Shown here one piece after another: positions 30,341 through 39,868 of a stretch of 64,000 bases of DNA. Each line of letters starts with the position of its first letter. The first letter of the stretch is position 1. Origin of the DNA: Calothrix sp. FI2-JRJ7. GTDB taxonomy: Bacteria; Cyanobacteriota; Cyanobacteriia; Cyanobacteriales; Nostocaceae. The notes under the pieces are model-generated. The model was not told the origin of the DNA and searched no databases. It saw only the letters and a list, made by a program, of their open reading frames with translations. The position numbers and the translations under genes are program-made. The stretch is from positions 372,001-436,000 of the forward strand of contig JAHHGX010000065.1 of the NCBI GenBank assembly GCA_019359675.1, given 5' to 3'.

Positions 30341-30434
30341 TGTATTATTTAGGATACATATCTTAACAATAGTATACATTTATCAGAAAAGTTGATACTT
30401 GAATTTTCGCACGTCAGGTACAAGTGTTATCTTG

Positions 30435-33419
30435 ATGCTCATGAATAAAAACTTTATAAAAATCTTATTGGTTGTAAGCGAGCAGAAAGATGTCGCTTTA
30501 CCAATTAATTTTATCCAAGAAGAGAATTTAGACATCCAAATCGCGACTTCAACTCAAGAAGCTATCACAGCAATTGTCTCACCTCCAGATTTAATAGTGT
30601 TGGACGTGACAACAGATAACATAGATGAAGTTAAAATATATAATTATTTAAAAAATTTAAAAGATTTAAAAGATAAATCCAAAGAAAATTTACTTGCTGA
30701 AATTGCAATTATTTTTATTACAGACATTAATCGTAATTTTTCGTTTATAAGTAATATTGATGTTAATAATTTAAATTTTGATTATTTAAAAAAACCGTTT
30801 ACACAAGATGAATTATTAGTTAGACTCCGGCAGCATTTGCGAATTATTAAATTAGAAAATAATTTAGATATAAAAAAACAACAGTTATGTACTGAGCGCG
30901 AAATAAAATCGATTGCAGCGCAGTTGGAAATTGAGCAAAAAACTTTAGAGCGTACACTGGCAATTCATGAAGCACGCTTGGATGCTTTTTTTAATAATGC
31001 TCCTGTTGGTCAGTGTATTGTAGACGAGCAAATGCGCTTTGTGCAGGTTAACGAGTTGTTAGCGCAGATGAATGGATTAAGCATCGAAGCACATAATGGT
31101 AAGTCTATATACGAAGTTTTTCCGGCTCTTGCATCTGTAATTGAACCGATTTATCGACGAGTATTAGAAACGGGAGAACCAGTTCTCTGCCAAGAAATAA
31201 GTGCTTACTCTTCTGACGAACGAAATTCTTTGCGCCATTTTTTAACTTCTTATTTTGCTATTCAAGGTTCAGACGGGCGCCCTAGTAATGTCGGCACAGT
31301 GGTTGTAGAAATCACAAACCTCAAACGCGCAGAAGCTGCTTTACGCTCTGCTGCTGAACGCGAGCGCGCCATTACACAAGCAATTCAACGGATGCGGCAA
31401 ACGCTCGATTTAGAAACAATATTTACCGCTACAACTGAGCAATTACGTCAAGTTATTAACTGTGACCGCGTTGTTGTTTATCGATTTAATCCTGACTGGA
31501 GTGGCGAATTCGTCGCTGAGTCCGTCGGTTCCGGTTGGGTTTCACTTATAGAAGAACATAATACCAACCCCAACTTTACTAACGGCGCCCTTAATGCGGA
31601 TACTTGTGTAGTAGAAAAAATGAACAGTAACGATAATCAAGTTATCGATACTTATCTCCAAATAACGAGAGGAGGAGCATATAATCGTGGCGCCAGCTTT
31701 CTATGTGTTAGCGATATTTACAACGTAGGATTTGAGGACTGTTATATTAAACTGCTAGAACGATTTCAAGCCAAAGCATATATTACCGTGCCCATCTTTT
31801 GCAGCAGCAAACTCTGGGGATTGCTTGGTAGTTATCAAAACAGCAGTTCGCGTTCTTGGGAAAGGGGAGAAATTAATATTGTAGTTCAAATTGGCAACCA
31901 ACTTGGTGTCGCACTTCAACAAGCAGAACTATTAGCACAAACACAACTTCAATCGCAAGCACTACAACAAGCTGCCGTCGCTGCTGATGCTGCCAACCGC
32001 TCGAAAAGCGAATTCCTAGCTTCGATGAGTCATGAGCTACGAACTCCACTCAATGCCATCTTAGGATTTACGCAGCTAATGAGTCACGATAATGATTTAT
32101 CTGAAGAACATCAGCAAAACCTCAGCATTATTAACAAAGCAGGTGAACATCTCCTCAACCTTATTAACGACATTTTAGAAATGTCAAAAATTGAAGCGGG
32201 TCAAAGCCACCTTAACATCACTAGCTTTGATTTAATTAGCTTACTCGACACTCTCAAAGAAATGTTGCTATTCCGTGCAACAGCCAAAGGTTTAATGCTG
32301 ACATTTGAATACGAAAGCAATATCCCTCAATATATTCAAACCGATGCTAGTAAACTTCGCCAAGTTCTATTAAATCTTTTAGGTAACGCAATTAAATTTA
32401 CAAGTAATGGTAGCGTTAAGCTGCGCGTATGTATAAGACAAAGCAGACAAGGAGACACTCAATACCTTGTGTTTGAAGTTAAAGATACAGGACCCGGTAT
32501 TTCTCCAAAAGAAATTGGGTTAGTTTTTGAAGCATTTGGACAAACTGAAACTGGTAGAAAATCGCAGCAAGGAACTGGGTTAGGTTTAGCAATTAGTCGT
32601 AAATACGTCAAAATGATGGGAGGTGATATTATACTTAATAGTACTTTAAACGTAGGTAGTACATTTACTTTTGATATTGAAATGTTACCTGCCTTACAAG
32701 ATGACATTTCCACAAATTCCTTTACCAATCAAATCATCAGTTTGGTGCCCGACCAACCGACTTACCGTATTCTAGTTGTAGATGATGCTGAAGATAGCCG
32801 TATATTTATCGTAAAACTACTGAGCTTAATTGGTTTTGCAGTGAAAGAAGCAGTAAACGGAAGAGAAGCGATATCAATATGGAACGAATGGCAACCAAAC
32901 CTAATTTTAATGGATTTGCGAATGCCAATGATGGATGGTTACGCCGCAACGCGAGAAATTAAACTGCGTGACTTAGAAAAACACTCCTCTCCATTAAATC
33001 GCACAGTCATCATAGCGCTTACAGCCAACGTTTTTTCTGAACAGCGTCACGCAATCCTCGAAGCTGGGTGTGACGACTTTATTAACAAACCTTTTCGCGA
33101 AGAATTTCTCCTCGAAAAAATTAGACAGCATCTCAAGGTGGAATATATATATAAAGATGCAACGAGTCAAACTAGCGAAGCTCAATATCCCCACACTCTA
33201 TCCGATACTCAAGTAGTTAAAATATTGTCCAAGCAACCGCGTGCATGGGTAGAACATTTATATCATGTTGCCGCTAGTTGTAGCGATAACCTCATTTTCG
33301 ACTTACTCAAACAAATATCCACACCACATGTTTCGTTACACAACTTCTTACAAGATTTAGCGACTAGTTATAACTTTGAGAAAATTATGGAATTAGCAAA
33401 TTTAGCTTTGAACTCGTAG
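30435..33419 (+). CDS. Hybrid sensor histidine kinase/response regulator (REC-PAS-GAF-HisKA-HATPase-REC)
   Basis: About 994 aa. Domains in order: N-terminal receiver (residues ~8-140; Asp in LIVLDVTTDN, Lys in FDYLKKPFT), coiled linker, PAS (~180-310, FFNNAPVGQCIVDEQMRFVQVNELLAQMNG), GAF of the cyanobacterial type (~330-510, DCDRVVVYRFNPDWSGEFVAESVG; no chromophore Cys context typical of phytochromes was identified), HisKA (His in MSHELRTPLNAILGF, ~535), HATPase (LLNLLGNAIKFT, DTGPGISPKE, GTGLGLAISRKYV), and a C-terminal receiver (ILVVDDAEDSRIF, LILMDLRMPMMDG, INKPFREE). A ~90-residue helical tail follows. Start ATG 30435 or 30441; TTG 30399 rejected. Signal unknown. Confidence 0.9.
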   Translation: MLMNKNFIKILLVVSEQKDVALPINFIQEENLDIQIATSTQEAITAIVSPPDLIVLDVTTDNIDEVKIYNYLKNLKDLKDKSKENLLAEIAIIFITDINRNFSFISNIDVNNLNFDYLKKPFTQDELLVRLRQHLRIIKLENNLDIKKQQLCTEREIKSIAAQLEIEQKTLERTLAIHEARLDAFFNNAPVGQCIVDEQMRFVQVNELLAQMNGLSIEAHNGKSIYEVFPALASVIEPIYRRVLETGEPVLCQEISAYSSDERNSLRHFLTSYFAIQGSDGRPSNVGTVVVEITNLKRAEAALRSAAERERAITQAIQRMRQTLDLETIFTATTEQLRQVINCDRVVVYRFNPDWSGEFVAESVGSGWVSLIEEHNTNPNFTNGALNADTCVVEKMNSNDNQVIDTYLQITRGGAYNRGASFLCVSDIYNVGFEDCYIKLLERFQAKAYITVPIFCSSKLWGLLGSYQNSSSRSWERGEINIVVQIGNQLGVALQQAELLAQTQLQSQALQQAAVAADAANRSKSEFLASMSHELRTPLNAILGFTQLMSHDNDLSEEHQQNLSIINKAGEHLLNLINDILEMSKIEAGQSHLNITSFDLISLLDTLKEMLLFRATAKGLMLTFEYESNIPQYIQTDASKLRQVLLNLLGNAIKFTSNGSVKLRVCIRQSRQGDTQYLVFEVKDTGPGISPKEIGLVFEAFGQTETGRKSQQGTGLGLAISRKYVKMMGGDIILNSTLNVGSTFTFDIEMLPALQDDISTNSFTNQIISLVPDQPTYRILVVDDAEDSRIFIVKLLSLIGFAVKEAVNGREAISIWNEWQPNLILMDLRMPMMDGYAATREIKLRDLEKHSSPLNRTVIIALTANVFSEQRHAILEAGCDDFINKPFREEFLLEKIRQHLKVEYIYKDATSQTSEAQYPHTLSDTQVVKILSKQPRAWVEHLYHVAASCSDNLIFDLLKQISTPHVSLHNFLQDLATSYNFEKIMELANLALNS

Positions 33420-33493: not shown

Positions 33494-33539
33494 TTCCTAG
33501 AGGATATATTTACATCCAACTTATCCTCTAGGAATTTTG
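33494..33539 (+). terminator. Rho-independent terminator of the hybrid kinase gene
   Basis: TTCCTAGAGGATA (33494-33506) and TATCCTCTAGGAA (33522-33534) are perfect 13-bp arms with a 15-base loop, followed by TTTTGG. Confidence 0.7.
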
Positions 33540-33691
33540 GCGCCATCTCTGTATACCCGTGGTGAAAATCATTACCATTACCACTTTGAACAATTAAATA
33601 TTTTTATATAAGTCAACTGCATAAGCGTGATACTTCCACAACTATATAATTAGTGTATTTACATATTGGGCAAATGCCAGGAGCAGGTGTA

Positions 33692-35143
33692 ATGAAGGGT
33701 GCTTCACCAAGATACTGGAAAATATACCGAATCAATCCAACACGGACTCATAATGGTTATGAGCATTCTGTTGTTTCTGCTGCCCAAGCATTTTTGCAAC
33801 AAAGCATTTCTGAATCTGAGGATATACAATCAGCACTGCTAGCATGTTTCTATGCTCCAGCTAGTGATGTTAAAAGTCGCGCTTATGCTGGGTTGTGCTT
33901 ACGGTGCTTTGTCTCAGAACCCATATTAAAAGCTTGTAAAAAAATTCATAATCTTTTTGCTAGCAATAAAAGTTTTACATATCAAGACTTATTGGGTTTT
34001 GTTTTGAATGATGACGGTCAAAGTTTGGTAATTACAGATGATGACCGCAAAGCACAACTCGTTGTTAATAGCGAAGGAAAAACGGACATAGCTAAGTATC
34101 AATTTTTTACAGTCAAAGTCTTACAAACGTTTAAAAGCGATTTGCGTGTGCGTTTATCGTTAGAAAACTGGGCTTACTTGCAAACGAAGCAAAATCCTGA
34201 AGTTAAAGACTTTTTATCGGAGTTTGGCTTTAAAAATTTGAGTGACTGGGCACTTTTAAACCGTGTTCGACCCAAGCAAATAGAACGATTATCAAAACAA
34301 GACGCAAATCTTGTTGAAGTTTTTCATTCTTGTTACCGTCGCGACCGAATACAACAACGTAAACAAAACCGCTCATTCGGCGCCAAATGTCCTGACCCTA
34401 GTGAGTGCCAACTTCAAGAAATGCTAGCGTTACTGCAAAAACGCGGTAATAGTGCAGTGATTAATAATACTAAAGAATTAATCAAAGCACTTAAATATGT
34501 GGCAATACAACTGCGGCAATACGACATTTGGAGTTACCGCGAGTCACTAGAAATTCAAGACCCAGAAACAGGAAGCTATGTAACAAGGACAGATTTAACA
34601 TACAACTCAACTAGCGAAGTCGATGTAGAGCAAAATGAAATATTAGAGTTCTTACACTCTCAACTCGAAATGGCTTTAATTAACAGTATTGAGCAAGAAG
34701 TCGAAAGTAGCATCTTAAGATTACAGAAAAGTAAAAAATATGCTCCTTTTGCTGCAAAGTTTATTCCTGGTTTACAGCTATACTATCAAGAGGGAAAATC
34801 GCTCAAAGAAATTACCGATATTTTACAAATGTCGAGTTGGGACCAAGCACGTCGTGTGTTTAACCCTGGTGAACTATTGGCAAAAGTCCGTTCAAAAACA
34901 GTTGAACAGCTACTCGACAGTATTTTAAACAAAGCATGTGAATTAGGTCTAACGAATTTGCCTCCTGCACCCGACTATCTCAAAACTTTAGCAGAACAAA
35001 TCGAATTGTTTGCCGATGAGGAAGTATTTCAAAGCGCAGCAGAAGAAATTCGCGCAGGTAAAAATCGTGTGATGAATAGTCGCTACGCTCATTTTTTGTG
35101 TCAAAATTTACAGCTTGCGTCAGTTATTTCAGTTGCATCATAA
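33692..35143 (+). CDS. Sigma-like conserved cyanobacterial protein (483 aa), CHAT-associated
   Basis: Helical protein without membrane segments. The C-terminal part (about 350-430) carries a helix-turn-helix resembling sigma region 4: PGLQLYYQEGKSLKEITDILQMSSWDQARRV, followed by FNPGELLAKVRSKTVEQLL. The middle part has FGFKNLSDWALLNRVRPKQIERL and an acidic segment with IWSYRESLEIQDPETG. I recognise this as a conserved cyanobacterial family found with DUF1822 and CHAT genes, not a canonical sigma factor. ATG 33692 has AGGAG 8 bases upstream; GTG 33653 and ATG 33674 are less likely. It lies 23 bases before the DUF1822 gene, so they are cotranscribed. DNA or RNA-polymerase binding is inference. 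Confidence 0.72.
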   Translation: MKGASPRYWKIYRINPTRTHNGYEHSVVSAAQAFLQQSISESEDIQSALLACFYAPASDVKSRAYAGLCLRCFVSEPILKACKKIHNLFASNKSFTYQDLLGFVLNDDGQSLVITDDDRKAQLVVNSEGKTDIAKYQFFTVKVLQTFKSDLRVRLSLENWAYLQTKQNPEVKDFLSEFGFKNLSDWALLNRVRPKQIERLSKQDANLVEVFHSCYRRDRIQQRKQNRSFGAKCPDPSECQLQEMLALLQKRGNSAVINNTKELIKALKYVAIQLRQYDIWSYRESLEIQDPETGSYVTRTDLTYNSTSEVDVEQNEILEFLHSQLEMALINSIEQEVESSILRLQKSKKYAPFAAKFIPGLQLYYQEGKSLKEITDILQMSSWDQARRVFNPGELLAKVRSKTVEQLLDSILNKACELGLTNLPPAPDYLKTLAEQIELFADEEVFQSAAEEIRAGKNRVMNSRYAHFLCQNLQLASVISVAS

Positions 35144-35166
35144 TTTATTCCATAGGAGTTTCATAA

Positions 35167-36243
35167 ATGTTGTCGGCAAATTCAACTAATAATTTCAGTG
35201 ATATAAGATTATTAATACCAGAAACAATTTGGTTAGAGATAGAACATTTTGACCAAGCGCAAGCACTAGTAAATAAAGATATAGACTCGATTAAAAATTC
35301 AACTACCAATGAGTTACAGCAGTGGCAAGCGTATCTAAATGCATTAGCGCTGTTTGCTTTAAAAGCATGGGTAAACGAGCGTATTAAAGTCCCAACAATT
35401 TGTGAGACTAAAACTATTTCACAATATGGTATTATTAAAGTTGGAGAATTTCAAATTTGTCTTATTGCTACAGAACAAGTGCTTGATGAAGTTGTAAATA
35501 TACCTCAACAAGCATTAAATAATTCCGAACCAATACACTTTTATTCACTGCTAGAAGTCAACGAAGAAGAAGAACAACTAATAATTCGTGGATTTATCCG
35601 TCACGACCAGTTAGTTAATTACCTTAATACTTCATCTAATAGCTTATATAATAACTGCTACCAACTACCTTTAACTTTATTAGATGCCGAACCATCACAT
35701 TTATTATTCTACATTCGCTATGTTGAACCAAGTACAATTAACTCACAAATTGGCGCCTCTCAACAAAATGTCGTAAAAAATAACTTAAACACAGTAGAAA
35801 TAACTACTAAATTAAGTAATTGGCTGCAAAATATATTTGACGACACATGGCAATTAATTGATACAATGGTTAACCGCGAAGCTAGTTTAGCTTTTAGTAC
35901 TCGCAGCATTGAACAAAATATTTCCTCGTCAACGCGCGGAAAACTAATAGATTTAGGAATACAAATTGATAACCAAAAATTAGCGCTACTAGTCAGTATA
36001 ACAGAACAAGCAGAAGGTATAAATGTTTTAGTTCAATTACATCCCACTAATGGCGAACAAACTTTGGCGCCAAATATAACCTTAACCTTACTCTCTAAAG
36101 CCAAAAAAAATCTACAGCAAGTGCAATCTCGCGCTTCAGACAACTATATTCAACTTAGACCTTTTCGTGGCGAAGTCGGCAAAAAATTTAGCATCGAAGT
36201 TAAATTCAACGATGCTACTATTTGCGAAAACTTTGAATTATAA
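35167..36243 (+). CDS. DUF1822 family protein
   Basis: A 358-aa cyanobacteria-specific DUF1822 protein: N-terminal IRLLIPETIWLEIEHFDQAQ, LQQWQAYLNALALFALKAWVNERI, a central FQICLIATEQVLDEVVNIPQQAL and FYSLLEVNEEEEQLIIRGFIRHDQL, then the linker WLQNIFDDTWQLIDTMVNRE and a C-terminal beta-rich domain ending in a carrier-like sandwich (GIQIDNQKLALLVSITEQAEGINVLVQLHPT). ATG has AGGAG upstream. Family function is unknown; it recurs beside CHAT proteases and sigma-like proteins, suggesting a common pathway. Confidence 0.85.
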   Translation: MLSANSTNNFSDIRLLIPETIWLEIEHFDQAQALVNKDIDSIKNSTTNELQQWQAYLNALALFALKAWVNERIKVPTICETKTISQYGIIKVGEFQICLIATEQVLDEVVNIPQQALNNSEPIHFYSLLEVNEEEEQLIIRGFIRHDQLVNYLNTSSNSLYNNCYQLPLTLLDAEPSHLLFYIRYVEPSTINSQIGASQQNVVKNNLNTVEITTKLSNWLQNIFDDTWQLIDTMVNREASLAFSTRSIEQNISSSTRGKLIDLGIQIDNQKLALLVSITEQAEGINVLVQLHPTNGEQTLAPNITLTLLSKAKKNLQQVQSRASDNYIQLRPFRGEVGKKFSIEVKFNDATICENFEL

Positions 36244-36319
36244 AAGTATCCTCTCTTGTGGAGTAGGTTTTCTTGTGGGGTGGGCATCCTTGCCCGCCTT
36301 CGCCCTCACCCTCAGTATA

Positions 36320-36916
36320 TTACACAGTTTTCAATTCCATAGCATTAATACAAAAAGGAATATGAATACCTTGCTCTTTCGCGGATATTACTAACTTCTT
36401 AACTCTACCTTTAACATCTAATAAAGTTAAAGGAATGGCGCCAGCATCTAGTTGTTGACTGAGTGCAGAATGTTTAATTTTCTTAATACTAGTGTCTAAG
36501 CGGTCTAACGCTTCTATCGAGATCGAATAATCGGGGTCATTGACAACATCTGGCTGAATTCTCATGTTGACTCCATATACTGGTTGTTCAAACACGATTG
36601 TCATGGGTCCAGGATTACCATGACCTGTACATAAAAGCGCATCACCAATACAAAAGTCCAACGGTTCAGAGGATGTTTGGTCTATTCTTAACAAATGTCC
36701 TGCAGCAATACTTACTAAAACTTCACGACCTTGACGTGAATTGATTAAAAATGTTGTTGGCAAATAAGTTAAAGATTTACCAAGCACTTGCCAATCAATT
36801 ACATCATCAGTCTGAAAATCATCTCTATTTTCCTCTCCCTCTGCCTTAATTGAATTCGATGTCATATTATTTGCAGTAGTAAGATATTGGGTTTTAACGT
36901 CAGAACCGATAATCAT
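36320..36916 (-). CDS. Unrecognised 198-aa protein, probably beta-rich
   Basis: No signal peptide or membrane helix. Residues ~30-40 are acidic (DDFQTDDVIDW); the rest alternates short strands and turns (FLINSRQGREVLVSIAAGHLLRID, GDALLCTGHGNPGPMTIVFEQPVYGVNMRIQPDV, KGRVKKLVISAKEQGIHIPFCINAMEL), suggestive of a jelly-roll lectin- or carbohydrate-binding-like fold. It is convergent with the DUF1822 gene and divergent from the CHAT gene. Real coding is supported by length and clean composition; no family is assigned. Confidence 0.6.
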   Translation of the reverse strand: MIIGSDVKTQYLTTANNMTSNSIKAEGEENRDDFQTDDVIDWQVLGKSLTYLPTTFLINSRQGREVLVSIAAGHLLRIDQTSSEPLDFCIGDALLCTGHGNPGPMTIVFEQPVYGVNMRIQPDVVNDPDYSISIEALDRLDTSIKKIKHSALSQQLDAGAIPLTLLDVKGRVKKLVISAKEQGIHIPFCINAMELKTV

Positions 36917-37391
36917 AATTTTGACCGTCCCTTTTAATATTTACAGATTATTAAATGATAAGCAAGACTTTAATAGCTTCGTACTTGAAACCACACCAAC
37001 ATAATTATTTTCAAGTAGATAAATTTAGATGTCTGTATAGGTTATATGTAACGATTAGCAGACTTTGTGACTCATATTGCTTGGTATTGTTATTGGCATA
37101 ACACTTATTCAAGCGTCGATAAAGAAATTATTAATTGTATTGTTTGTTGTTTACTGCTCAATCCGTTGCTGTTATCTTCAACTGCGAAATTCCTCATTCC
37201 GGAAATGCATCTCAACATTTTTTCACGGTTTTATAAGTGATTTATTATACTGAATACTGAGAATTGAAGTAGATTGATGATTTTTGATTTAATAGTGGCT
37301 AAAGAAAAATGTCGTCTTACGAAAAAGAATATTTTTTACATGTAGGAAAGAGCATAATACTAGTTCACATGTAAAAAATAAGTGTATTCTC
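36917..37391. other. Divergent intergenic region upstream of the CHAT gene
   Basis: 475 AT-rich bases; the only notable structure is the long inverted repeat at 37330-37380 just before the CHAT start codon. Confidence 0.45.
37330..37380. promoter_or_regulatory. 14-bp inverted repeat immediately upstream of the CHAT gene
   Basis: TATTTTTTACATGT (37330-37343) and ACATGTAAAAAATA (37367-37380), 23 bases apart; the second arm ends 11 bases before the ATG. No Shine-Dalgarno sequence lies between. It could be an operator or an RNA hairpin that controls initiation. Confidence 0.5.
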
Positions 37392-38510
37392 ATGAGTAAG
37401 TCTGTTGTCATAAGTTTGGGACACGGTAACTTAAATCAGGGATTCCCAAGAGTCACAGTGCAGGTTTGGGAAACTAATAACCCCCATAGAGAACAGTTTA
37501 TTGGAAGCTTGCCACCCGCTCCACAGTTAGACCAGTTGTATAAAAGCTGGCGAATTATTTATCAAAGTTTATGTGACCGTAAGTTACTTCGGACACTAAG
37601 TACTGATGACTTGGATGATTATTTAGACATTGGTAACGGTGTTACGAATGTATCTCAACATAACTTTACTGAGTTGTGTGCCGGTTTGGAGGCAGGAATG
37701 GATACCTGGCTAAAATCTGAGGGGATACTTGGTTTAAGTCGCAAATTACGTTCAGCATTACATTTGAACGAAGAAATTAACGTAATAGTAGAAACTGATG
37801 ATGACTTGATGCGGCGCCTACCTTGGCATCGCTGCGATTTTTTTCGTGATTATTCTAAAGCTGAAATTGCAATATCACGACCTGAGTATATGCGTCACAA
37901 TGATTTAGATTTGCCACCAAAACGTAATGTAGTTCGCATTTTAGCGATTCTTGGTGATAGCGAAGGCATTGACTTAGGCACCGAAACCGAATTTTTACAA
38001 GGTTTGAACGAATGTGAAGTTGTATTCCTCCAAACTCCAACTCGTCAAGAGCTTAATGGTTCTTTATGGGATAATCTCGGTTGGGATATTATTTTCTTTG
38101 CTGGTCACAGTCGTACCGAAGGCGCCACTGGCAGACTATATATAAATAATAGTACTGATAACAGTATTACTATAGAAGAACTCTCTGAAGCACTCAAAGC
38201 TGCAATTGAGAAAGGTTTGAAATTAGCAATTTTTAATTCTTGTGATGGCCTTGGAATGGCACTTGCACTGGAAAAATTACATATTCCAACTGCTATTGTG
38301 ATGCGCGAACCTGTTCCTAACCGCGTTGCTCAGGTTTTTTTCCATAACTTTCTCACCGCGTTTGCTATATCGCATTTGCCTTTATATACATCATTCCAAA
38401 TGGCACGCAGGCAGTTACAAGGTTTAGAAAATGAATTCCCTGGCGCCTCGTGGTTGCCTATAATTTGCCAAAACCCTGCTGTGGAACCGCCTGTTTGGGC
38501 AAAAATATAA
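37392..38510 (+). CDS. CHAT-domain (caspase-like) protease
   Basis: A 372-aa protein with a C-terminal CHAT domain (about 170-360). The catalytic dyad is intact: His239 in IIFFAGHSRTEG and Cys284 in LAIFNSCDGLGMA. Further CHAT blocks are VRILAILGDSEGIDLGTE, PTAIVMREPVPNRVAQVFFHNFLTAF and a C-terminal ASWLPIICQNPAVEPP. The N-terminal ~160 residues (VISLGHGNLNQGFPRVTVQVWE) resemble the domain that precedes CHAT in many cyanobacterial proteins. Unlike the common CHAT-CHASE2 fusions it has no membrane sensor. Substrate unknown; the sigma-like/DUF1822 operon 1.1 kb upstream is a natural candidate partner. Confidence 0.85.
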   Translation: MSKSVVISLGHGNLNQGFPRVTVQVWETNNPHREQFIGSLPPAPQLDQLYKSWRIIYQSLCDRKLLRTLSTDDLDDYLDIGNGVTNVSQHNFTELCAGLEAGMDTWLKSEGILGLSRKLRSALHLNEEINVIVETDDDLMRRLPWHRCDFFRDYSKAEIAISRPEYMRHNDLDLPPKRNVVRILAILGDSEGIDLGTETEFLQGLNECEVVFLQTPTRQELNGSLWDNLGWDIIFFAGHSRTEGATGRLYINNSTDNSITIEELSEALKAAIEKGLKLAIFNSCDGLGMALALEKLHIPTAIVMREPVPNRVAQVFFHNFLTAFAISHLPLYTSFQMARRQLQGLENEFPGASWLPIICQNPAVEPPVWAKI

Positions 38511-38532
38511 AACAATACAATATATGTGATAT

Positions 38533-38594
38533 GGTGCGTCACGCTTTTAGATTACTTGCTTCGTTGTAAGATTGTTTATGGTCTGATCGCACCC
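38533..38594. repeat. Degenerate GGTGCGTCA...TGATCGCACC hairpin element
   Basis: Arms GGTGCGTCA and TGATCGCACC (one extra base) around ~45 bases. Third, decayed member of the family at 25544 and 48170; it lies between the CHAT and ankyrin genes. Confidence 0.5.
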
Positions 38595-38599
38595 TACAT

Positions 38600-39868
38600 A
38601 TGACTCAAAACGTTTTGCTGTTGGCCGTACAAAGTGGTGATATTAAAAAAGTACACACGTTATTGGACACTGGAGCGTCTGTTAATGTTTGTGATAATTA
38701 TACTGGTACAAGCGCATTAATGTATGCTGCTAATTATGGTTATGTTGAAGTAGTGCGTGCGCTGATTAAAGCAGGAGCAGATGTTAATTTACGACGACGA
38801 CAATATGGGTTAACGGCATTAATGTTAGCTGCGGCAGCAAACCAGGTTGATGTTGTTAAGTTACTTGTTGCTGCGAACTCAGATGTGAATGCTACAAACG
38901 AAGATGGTAGTACTGCTTTAATGGTGGCGACGAGTAAGGGTCATGTTGAAGTTGTTAAAATACTTCTTGATAACGGCGCCGACCCAAATATTATAGATAA
39001 TGACTCAGATACAGCGCTGCGGTTAGCGGTAAAGCTTGGTAATATTTCTATTCTTAAATTGTTATTGTCAGCAGGTGTAGATATAAATACTCAAGATTCT
39101 GATGGCGAAACTGCGCTGATGTTAGCAGCGGACTTGGGAAAAATTGATATTATTCAAACTTTGCTTAATGGGGAAGCGGAAGTAAAATTACAAAATCAAG
39201 ATGCAGGAACAGCACTTTCAGCAGCAGTGGCAGCGGGGAATAGTGCGATAGCATCTTTACTACTACAAGCAGGCGCTTCGGTCAATCATCAAGATAAAGA
39301 TGGTGAAACCGCGCTTCATATTGCTGCTTTGGAAGGATATGTTGATGTTGCTGAAGTTTTGCTAAATCGAGATGCTGATGTCAATATTAGAAACAAAATT
39401 GGTGATACTCCATTACTAGTAGCAGCATTACAAGGGCATAATCAAATTATCGAAGCTTTACTACGACGCGGCGCCGATGTTAATGTTAGTAACTTGAATG
39501 AAACTCCTTTAACACTGGCAGTAGCACAAGGACACACTGATATTGTTAAAACACTATTAGATTTTGGCGCCAACCCCAACACAGTGAACGCAGAAGGTAA
39601 AAGTGTTTTGCTCAAAGCATCAGAACGTAGTCATACCGACATCATTAAATATTTAACTTTATCAGGCGCCGATGTAAATTTCCAAGATGCAGCAGGTGCA
39701 ACCCCATTAATGTGGGCAGCATCACGGAACTCACTACCAGCATTACAAATATTACTACTAGCAGGCGCCGATGTCAGTTTAAAAAATAAAGGTGGATATA
39801 CAGCGCTTATGCTCGCAGAATATAATAATTACCCAGATATCATAAAAGTGCTGAGTGAGTCGTGCTAA
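38600..39868 (+). CDS. Ankyrin-repeat protein (about 12 repeats)
   Basis: 422 aa made entirely of ~33-residue ankyrin repeats (e.g. GSTALMVATSKGHVEVVKIL, GETALMLAADLGKIDIIQTL, GETALHIAALEGYVDVAEVL, GYTALMLAEYNNYPDIIKVL), with no signal peptide or other domain. Such proteins are binding scaffolds; the partner cannot be told. It is 90 bases downstream of the CHAT gene on the same strand, separated by a hairpin element. The stop codon lies in a heptanucleotide repeat tract. Confidence 0.92.
   Translation: MTQNVLLLAVQSGDIKKVHTLLDTGASVNVCDNYTGTSALMYAANYGYVEVVRALIKAGADVNLRRRQYGLTALMLAAAANQVDVVKLLVAANSDVNATNEDGSTALMVATSKGHVEVVKILLDNGADPNIIDNDSDTALRLAVKLGNISILKLLLSAGVDINTQDSDGETALMLAADLGKIDIIQTLLNGEAEVKLQNQDAGTALSAAVAAGNSAIASLLLQAGASVNHQDKDGETALHIAALEGYVDVAEVLLNRDADVNIRNKIGDTPLLVAALQGHNQIIEALLRRGADVNVSNLNETPLTLAVAQGHTDIVKTLLDFGANPNTVNAEGKSVLLKASERSHTDIIKYLTLSGADVNFQDAAGATPLMWAASRNSLPALQILLLAGADVSLKNKGGYTALMLAEYNNYPDIIKVLSESC

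Follow-up and report, generated by a model that had tools for sequence, protein, structure and literature searches.

What does a bare CHAT-domain protease do when it is encoded beside a sigma-like gene and a DUF1822 gene? The question is raised by a 64,000-nucleotide (nt) stretch of the genome of the cyanobacterium Calothrix sp. FI2-JRJ7, referred to here as the window. There, on the + strand, lie genes for a sigma-like protein (33692-35143; 483 amino acids [aa] from ATG, with a longer start possible at the GTG at 33653), a DUF1822 protein (35167-36243; Pfam DUF1822, 1.1e-51) and a CHAT protease of 372 aa (37392-38510; Pfam PF12770, 2.8e-7), accompanied by a 198-aa gene on the opposite strand and an ankyrin-repeat gene. 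All five open reading frames (ORFs) were confirmed at the positions given by the original prediction, which proposed a protease-controlled transcription system. We favor, with a probability of roughly 55%, a receptor-less descendant of a conflict module that occurs in filamentous cyanobacteria and is composed of an EACC2-caspase, an extracytoplasmic function (ECF) sigma factor and DUF1822, in which protease, DUF1822, sigma factor and a promoter box would form a switch.

The switch would work as follows. In the ancestor, CHAT fused to an nSTAND1-WD40 receptor would have sensed an invader or stress. Activated CHAT would act on the DUF1822 protein, which would hold the sigma factor, and the freed sigma factor would read TGCATAAG-N13-CAtCTAT promoters before its own gene, before DUF1822 and CHAT in some genomes, and before a target set that in at least one genome would include other caspase, CHAT and NB-ARC genes. 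The receptor has been lost at a domain junction in the window lineage, so activation of the bare protease would have to come in trans or through its own expression. A more ambitious version, which we advance tentatively and would not expect to hold in full, holds that a sigma factor gated by a protease is widespread in this family of cyanobacteria and is the bacterial counterpart of signalling from nucleotide-binding leucine-rich repeat (NLR) receptors to transcription. Its chain might run from WD40 or membrane receptors to a separase- or Craspase-like protease and on to a sigma factor freed from DUF1822. The output might be the sigma factor's own operon plus an arsenal of caspase, CHAT, TIR and NB-ARC genes, receptors of the same kind included, all through one promoter, and the window lineage might be a case in which the receptor was stripped off. 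Computed support for the receptor-less descendant comes from gene linkage, receptor loss, catalytic residues, purifying selection, and the box with its co-distribution.

The linkage was evident within the strain's own 8.66-Mb genome, which contains 51 CHAT matches and 19 DUF1822 matches. A same-strand CHAT gene follows DUF1822 in 10 of these 19 cases, window included, more than chance would give, and chance clustering of sigma, DUF1822 and CHAT was rejected; two of the 19 DUF1822 genes are at contig ends, and in the window the 198-aa gene intervenes on the opposite strand. Six of the 10 CHAT proteins are CHASE2 fusions, and several other DUF1822 loci of the genome have a sigma-like gene upstream. 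Across the family, 65 of 192 genomes gave a sigma-like match at E 1e-60 or better. Neighborhoods were surveyed for 39 of the 66 listed matches (at least 47% identity, full-length or contig-cut; four partial matches were not counted). The predicted operon of the sigma-like protein and DUF1822 held up well: the two genes were directly adjacent in 36 of the 39 loci, and DUF1822 was present in 38. A caspase-fold protease, in one of five forms, occurred within the next three same-strand ORFs in 22. Sigma-like protein and DUF1822 are thus the constant pair and the protease is the exchangeable part, which is the pattern expected if DUF1822 is a sigma inhibitor. The sigma-like protein, DUF1822 and the CHAT protease form a real unit.

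No library model named the sigma-like protein a sigma factor on its own (best NCBIfam E 0.057), and because its score against the curated sigma model TIGR02937 was only 10.7 bits, with a cut-off of 42.9, we use the term "sigma-like." An alignment allowed a region 2 with an insert and a helix-turn-helix (HTH) region 4 to be read. The call made in the original prediction, weak by itself, proved right when an iterated profile seeded with the window protein reached paralogues that match TIGR02937 as sigma70-ECF at 3e-29 and 6e-34; the paralogues of two loci, L081 and L083, score 101.7 and 117 bits. When the family profile was compared with solved structures, HTH regulators came first (best E 2.4e-4), followed by sigma regions 2 and 4 (1.2e-3), all of them weak matches. 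The adjacent ECF sigma and DUF1822 genes that characterize EACC2-caspase systems are found here, with the sigma identity reached via intermediates. In view of the box described below and its distribution, the protein is probably a working sigma factor, its regulon being in part of the conflict type.

A bipartite promoter-like box, TGCATAAG-N13-CAACTATATAA, lies at 33618-33649 on the + strand, 74 nt before the ATG of the sigma-like gene. It scored 26.0 bits, the best match in the window (the next was 12.0), the site being one of the 15 on which the matrix was trained, and its two conserved halves recur unchanged in Dulcicalothrix desertica PCC 7102 and Calothrix sp. HK-06. The consensus, TGCATAAG-N13-CAtCTAT, has an ECF-like spacing, ECF promoters usually being arranged as 7-mer/16/4-mer. 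In 16 of 23 loci, TGCATAA was located 74 to 83 nt before the start of the sigma-like gene. Anchoring on TGCATAA gave C at +21 in 19 and A at +26 in 21 of the 23, and these fixed-distance downstream columns count as conservation because the choice of anchor does not force them. The 15-site matrix placed a box before 38 of 48 sigma-like genes, including 24 of 33 outside the training set (held-out loci that are partly near copies of one another, with the L060 box scored as missed, its ORF starting far upstream, although it had been found earlier), and in none of 48 control stretches inside genes. Over both strands of 2.48 Mb there were 119 matches, compared with 2 in 0.41 Mb of shuffled control.

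The box is not confined to the sigma-like gene. Boxes of at least 21 bits precede DUF1822 in ten loci and CHAT in a few, and in those ten either another gene or an interval of some 100 nt at least lies between DUF1822 and the sigma-like gene. TGCATAA was found upstream of 14 of 205 control ORFs, 7 of which were themselves DUF1822 or CHAT genes. Autoregulated promoters shared with target genes are common, but not universal, among ECF sigma factors. The CHASE2-CHAT loci L081, L083, L084 and L085 had no box of 13 bits or more. A literature search for TGCATAAG gave none on this subject by title among the matches listed, which does not prove the box unpublished.

Genomes were classed as carriers by a sigma match at E 1e-60, and sites were counted with a box pattern allowing one mismatch, individual sites being inspected for part of the 44 genomes. 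The 24 carriers contained 411 sites (median 17; backward control, 6) and the 20 non-carriers 15 (median 1), with 48 in the backward control, 44 of them in genome G020. All four sites of G157 lie no more than 6 kb from its sigma-like gene. The box is co-distributed with the sigma-like gene, more weakly inside genera, and we propose that the sigma-like protein binds it. The weak sigma scores would also suit a box that serves another activator, or DUF1822, acting in either case with the housekeeping sigma factor, the sigma-like protein then being a non-sigma adaptor; the downstream half of the window box does contain TATAAT, a housekeeping -10. We consider this unlikely, since the box tracks the sigma-like gene across the 44 genomes and precedes that very gene, its 7-mer/16/4-mer spacing is the one usual for ECF promoters, and the L081 and L083 paralogues match sigma70-ECF strongly.

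Candidate targets of the sigma-like protein were sought in 20 box-linked regions of G017 and G018, 20 regions of the D. desertica and HK-06 genomes (two of which, L316 and L319, overlap) and 30 of 32 loose sites of the strain's own genome. Downstream genes in G017 and G018 encode C14-nSTAND1, CHAT-nSTAND1 and CHAT-TIR-AAA proteins, a further CHAT protein, an NB-ARC protein with weak WD40 matches and a second sigma gene product; the remaining scanned targets there have metabolic or envelope roles, and in 7 of the 20 regions no ORF reaching 100 aa lay within 260 nt. Repeated targets in the window's genus were a Dyp-type peroxidase (in D. desertica a short ORF only), a small Cys-rich protein and two small proteins. 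Weak sites in the strain's own genome precede one gene with a caspase domain and one TIR gene, the latter arranged back to back with a CHAT-TIR gene.

Some of these box-linked genes deserve separate mention. At L093 (7603-9700, about 477.6 to 479.7 kb on G000:C65), the genes for a TIR protein and for a 352-aa CHAT protein whose second half appears TIR-like by eye are arranged back to back around a weak sigma box. The small Cys-rich proteins, 109 to 113 aa long and located behind boxes in the strain's own genome and two congeners (L228, L304, L317 and L320), look like peptide precursors; the two that were scanned, from L304 and L320, matched no Pfam family. A protein of 295 to 297 aa, peptidoglycan-binding-like by eye, has a box in four genomes (L184, 7847; L210, 1743; L217, 1581; L212, 15949), and its conserved 198-aa neighbor, which shares only a length label with the window's 198-aa gene, is behind a box in three. 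A lipoprotein-like protein (by eye) of 282 to 296 aa has a box in three genomes (L066, L071 and L185).

The protease of the unit has both marks of a CHAT peptidase: a PF12770 score of 30.7 bits (cut-off, 24) and the His239/Cys284 pair. Of 18 aligned rows, 17, the window's among them, keep this pair, which the original prediction described as intact; the sequence of the other, L092, had been trimmed at a wrong position. An N-terminal pseudo-protease-like (EACC2-like) domain of about residues 1 to 170 is followed by the CHAT domain at about 180 to 370, the EACC2 name coming from comparison with the fusions and not from a match to an EACC2 model. The window protein is nested among CHAT-nSTAND1-WD40 receptors and ends where the receptor begins, and its module 1-372 is common to nSTAND1, NB-ARC and CHASE2 fusions. 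The variable C-terminal sensor or effector domain of EACC2-caspases is gone, the protein stopping at the fusion junction, and for that reason we regard it as a derived variant and not a standard member. CHASE2, the absence of which had been emphasized, is indeed missing by Pfam, but it is not the key difference: the protein's closest relatives are receptors of the nSTAND1-WD40 type, and it is this receptor that was lost. The gene is under purifying selection (ratio of nonsynonymous to synonymous substitutions [dN/dS] of 0.11 to 0.22 over three species), and decay after receptor loss was rejected. A fold search matched the CHAT model to Csx29 of Craspase and to separase over its whole length, and the relatives come from that search only, since a sequence search of the PDB with the CHAT profile gave nothing better than E 0.4. 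Identity with HetF was rejected (NCBIfam NF045509, 16.4 bits; cut-off, 1200).

The protein has 23 relatives in its genome (24 matches, its own included), and the bare form could be not a trigger but a decoy, or else a regulatory partner to full-length EACC2-CHAT receptors encoded at other loci. Receptor loss fits such a role, as does the placement of the gene, apart from sigma and DUF1822 and behind a perfect inverted repeat of its own (37330-37380; 14-nt arms 23 nt apart), a candidate operator that lies just before the CHAT start and is conserved in three species. Because of that repeat and the absence of a sigma box there, CHAT has its own upstream region. We nonetheless regard the decoy as quite improbable: the catalytic residues have been kept, the gene is under purifying selection, and CHAT was lost along with sigma and DUF1822 in two related genomes, G002 and G005.

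Those losses also show which genes belong to the unit. D. desertica (G004) and HK-06 (G006) have all five genes in the same order. The order in G002 and G003 is kinase, 198-aa gene, ankyrin gene and cyanoexosortase gene, with no sigma, DUF1822 or CHAT; G001 is arranged in the same way but has no kinase match, and in G005 DUF1822 is reduced to its last 70 residues. By DNA comparison, bits of both CHAT ends and of DUF1822 remain in G002, a different CHAT bit and a longer DUF1822 piece remain in G005, and no remnants were found in G003 or G001. Because the scars differ, and because G002 is closer to G004 than to G005 in silent changes, G002 and G005 are best read as two independent losses by deletions flanking the 198-aa gene on both sides. 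The 198-aa gene (36320-36916, - strand), the product of which has no Pfam family match, and the ankyrin gene (38600-39868, + strand; Pfam ankyrin, 1.9e-95) have no stops and show pairwise dN/dS of 0.12 to 0.34 over six genomes, three of which (G002, G003 and G005) lack sigma, DUF1822 and CHAT. Being intact and constrained there, they are bystanders, independent of the protease unit. The position of the 198-aa gene beside sigma and DUF1822 is probably old, since the three are also neighbors in G041, with one extra ORF between. The genome-wide co-occurrence check that had been suggested for the families thus tied the sigma-like protein, DUF1822 and the protease together and left the ankyrin and 198-aa genes out. 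The four- or five-part system of the original prediction, with an ankyrin scaffold and a 198-aa sensor or substrate, would account for the adjacency of all five genes and for their conservation in three species, but it is very improbable given that both genes persist under constraint without the unit and that the G002 and G005 deletions left the 198-aa gene intact between them.

Several observations weigh against the receptor-less switch. Seventeen of the 39 surveyed loci, some at a contig end, had no protease in the next three same-strand ORFs, two of them having a tetratricopeptide repeat (TPR) protein in that position. The window CHAT gene is without a box. The sigma identity depends on intermediates, and an AlphaFold model of the sigma-like protein, built from three near-identical rows, reached a predicted local distance difference test (pLDDT) score of 35 and was not used. 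The DUF1822 profile found nothing better than E 0.036 in the PDB, and no similarity to Csx30 was found. The contrast in box number shrinks inside mixed genera (median 4 in 9 carriers and 1 in 12 non-carriers); G174 and G181 carry the sigma-like gene with no site by pattern; and three genomes with only a 38 to 39% identical paralogue, which were set aside, had 0, 3 and 18 sites, the 18 of G089 being mostly one repeated sequence. Four of 57 CHAT matches in G017 lay no more than 300 nt behind one of the 27 boxes there, with 0.03 expected, in a test run after CHAT genes had already been noticed behind some boxes. None did so in G018 (18 boxes, 48 CHAT matches) or in the strain's own genome (8 boxes, 51 matches, 25 of them compared by script and lists examined by eye). 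A looser pattern gave 32 sites in the latter genome against 15 backward controls, with few convincing targets.

The proposed steps between protease and sigma factor come from analogy. Type III-E Craspase comprises Cas7-11, Csx29, Csx30 and CASP-sigma, and in the excerpted text of PMC10028731 Csx29 cuts Csx30, a sigma inhibitor. By this analogy, DUF1822 would restrain the sigma factor, as an anti-sigma protein or substrate, and CHAT would cut DUF1822 to free it. The window locus resembles Craspase in having a CHAT-type protease of the same two-domain fold with a sigma factor and a third protein alongside; it differs in that the window CHAT lacks TPR and no sequence link between DUF1822 and Csx30 was found. 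The stated absence of CRISPR near the locus was borne out, as the window contained no CRISPR-like direct repeats (at least 22 nt, within 120 nt). Cas7-11 was not among the six proteins scanned, which, in the window as in the whole genome, were the only ones checked for it. A further comparison is DdvA, a Myxococcus protein with an ECF partner. By the title of PDB entry 8rw5, DdvA is a transmembrane protein and itself the anti-sigma, whereas here CHAT is separate and has no receptor or membrane domain; no paper mainly about DdvA was among the matches listed. Closer to the window are the CHASE2-CHAT/DUF1822 paralogues at L081, L083, L084 and L085, which have the same gene order and a constant protease part 43 to 46% identical but, unlike the window, a fused membrane CHASE2 sensor. 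Their upstream gene is a clear sigma70-ECF in L081 and L083 and a weak one in L084 and L085.

A unit of EACC2-caspase, ECF sigma and DUF1822 has been predicted before. In the excerpts we drew on, Kaur and others (eLife 2021, PMC8195603) described the EACC2-caspase module with its variable C-terminal domains and, next to it, genes for an ECF sigma and DUF1822, and they put forward transcription as the output of such neighborhoods. The window locus agrees with that account in its constant N-terminal alpha+beta module and caspase domain, its adjacent sigma and DUF1822 genes and the proposed step from protease to transcription; it departs from it in lacking the variable C-terminal sensor and in the opposite-strand gene that splits the set. 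Those excerpts name no promoter box, regulon or anti-sigma role. The idea of a protease-linked transcription system, now supported by gene linkage and a shared promoter-like box, was therefore not new in itself. The present analysis adds the receptor-less variant, the gene-loss evidence for membership, a relationship by fold to Csx29 and separase, and the promoter box together with a candidate regulon. In PMC10907252, the excerpted text of which does not contain the word sigma, CHAT and nSTAND1 occur in targets of diversity-generating retroelements (DGRs). A defined box makes the predicted protease-controlled switch directly testable. The comparison suggests that control of a sigma factor by a CHAT protease is a wider design, of which Craspase represents one CRISPR-linked instance. 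It would also link STAND receptors to a cell-death-type gene set in multicellular cyanobacteria.

Other features of the region are noted here. The DUF1822, CHAT and ankyrin families were all above their Pfam cut-offs, and the sigma-like, DUF1822, 198-aa and CHAT proteins gave no PADLOC match. The gene set ends before 40042, because the gene there is cyanoexosortase B-associated. On the other side, a histidine kinase gene (30399-33419) encodes 1006 aa here, against 1263 in D. desertica and 1266 in HK-06, an internal stretch being absent near residues 178 to 226. A palindrome with 13-nt arms lies after the kinase gene at 33494-33534, and G003 has three copies of it in the corresponding position. 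Another palindrome, GGCGCC, was counted 112 times in the window (1-64000), with 3.9 expected, and GCGATCGC, the usual cyanobacterial palindrome HIP1, occurs 0 times. In a comparison that took in loci L058, L128, L130 and L131, three congeners share this GGCGCC-rich, GCGATCGC-free pattern, four loci of other genera show the reverse, with 0 GGCGCC and 6 to 13 GCGATCGC, and G001 carries both palindromes, with 14 GGCGCC and 2 GCGATCGC.

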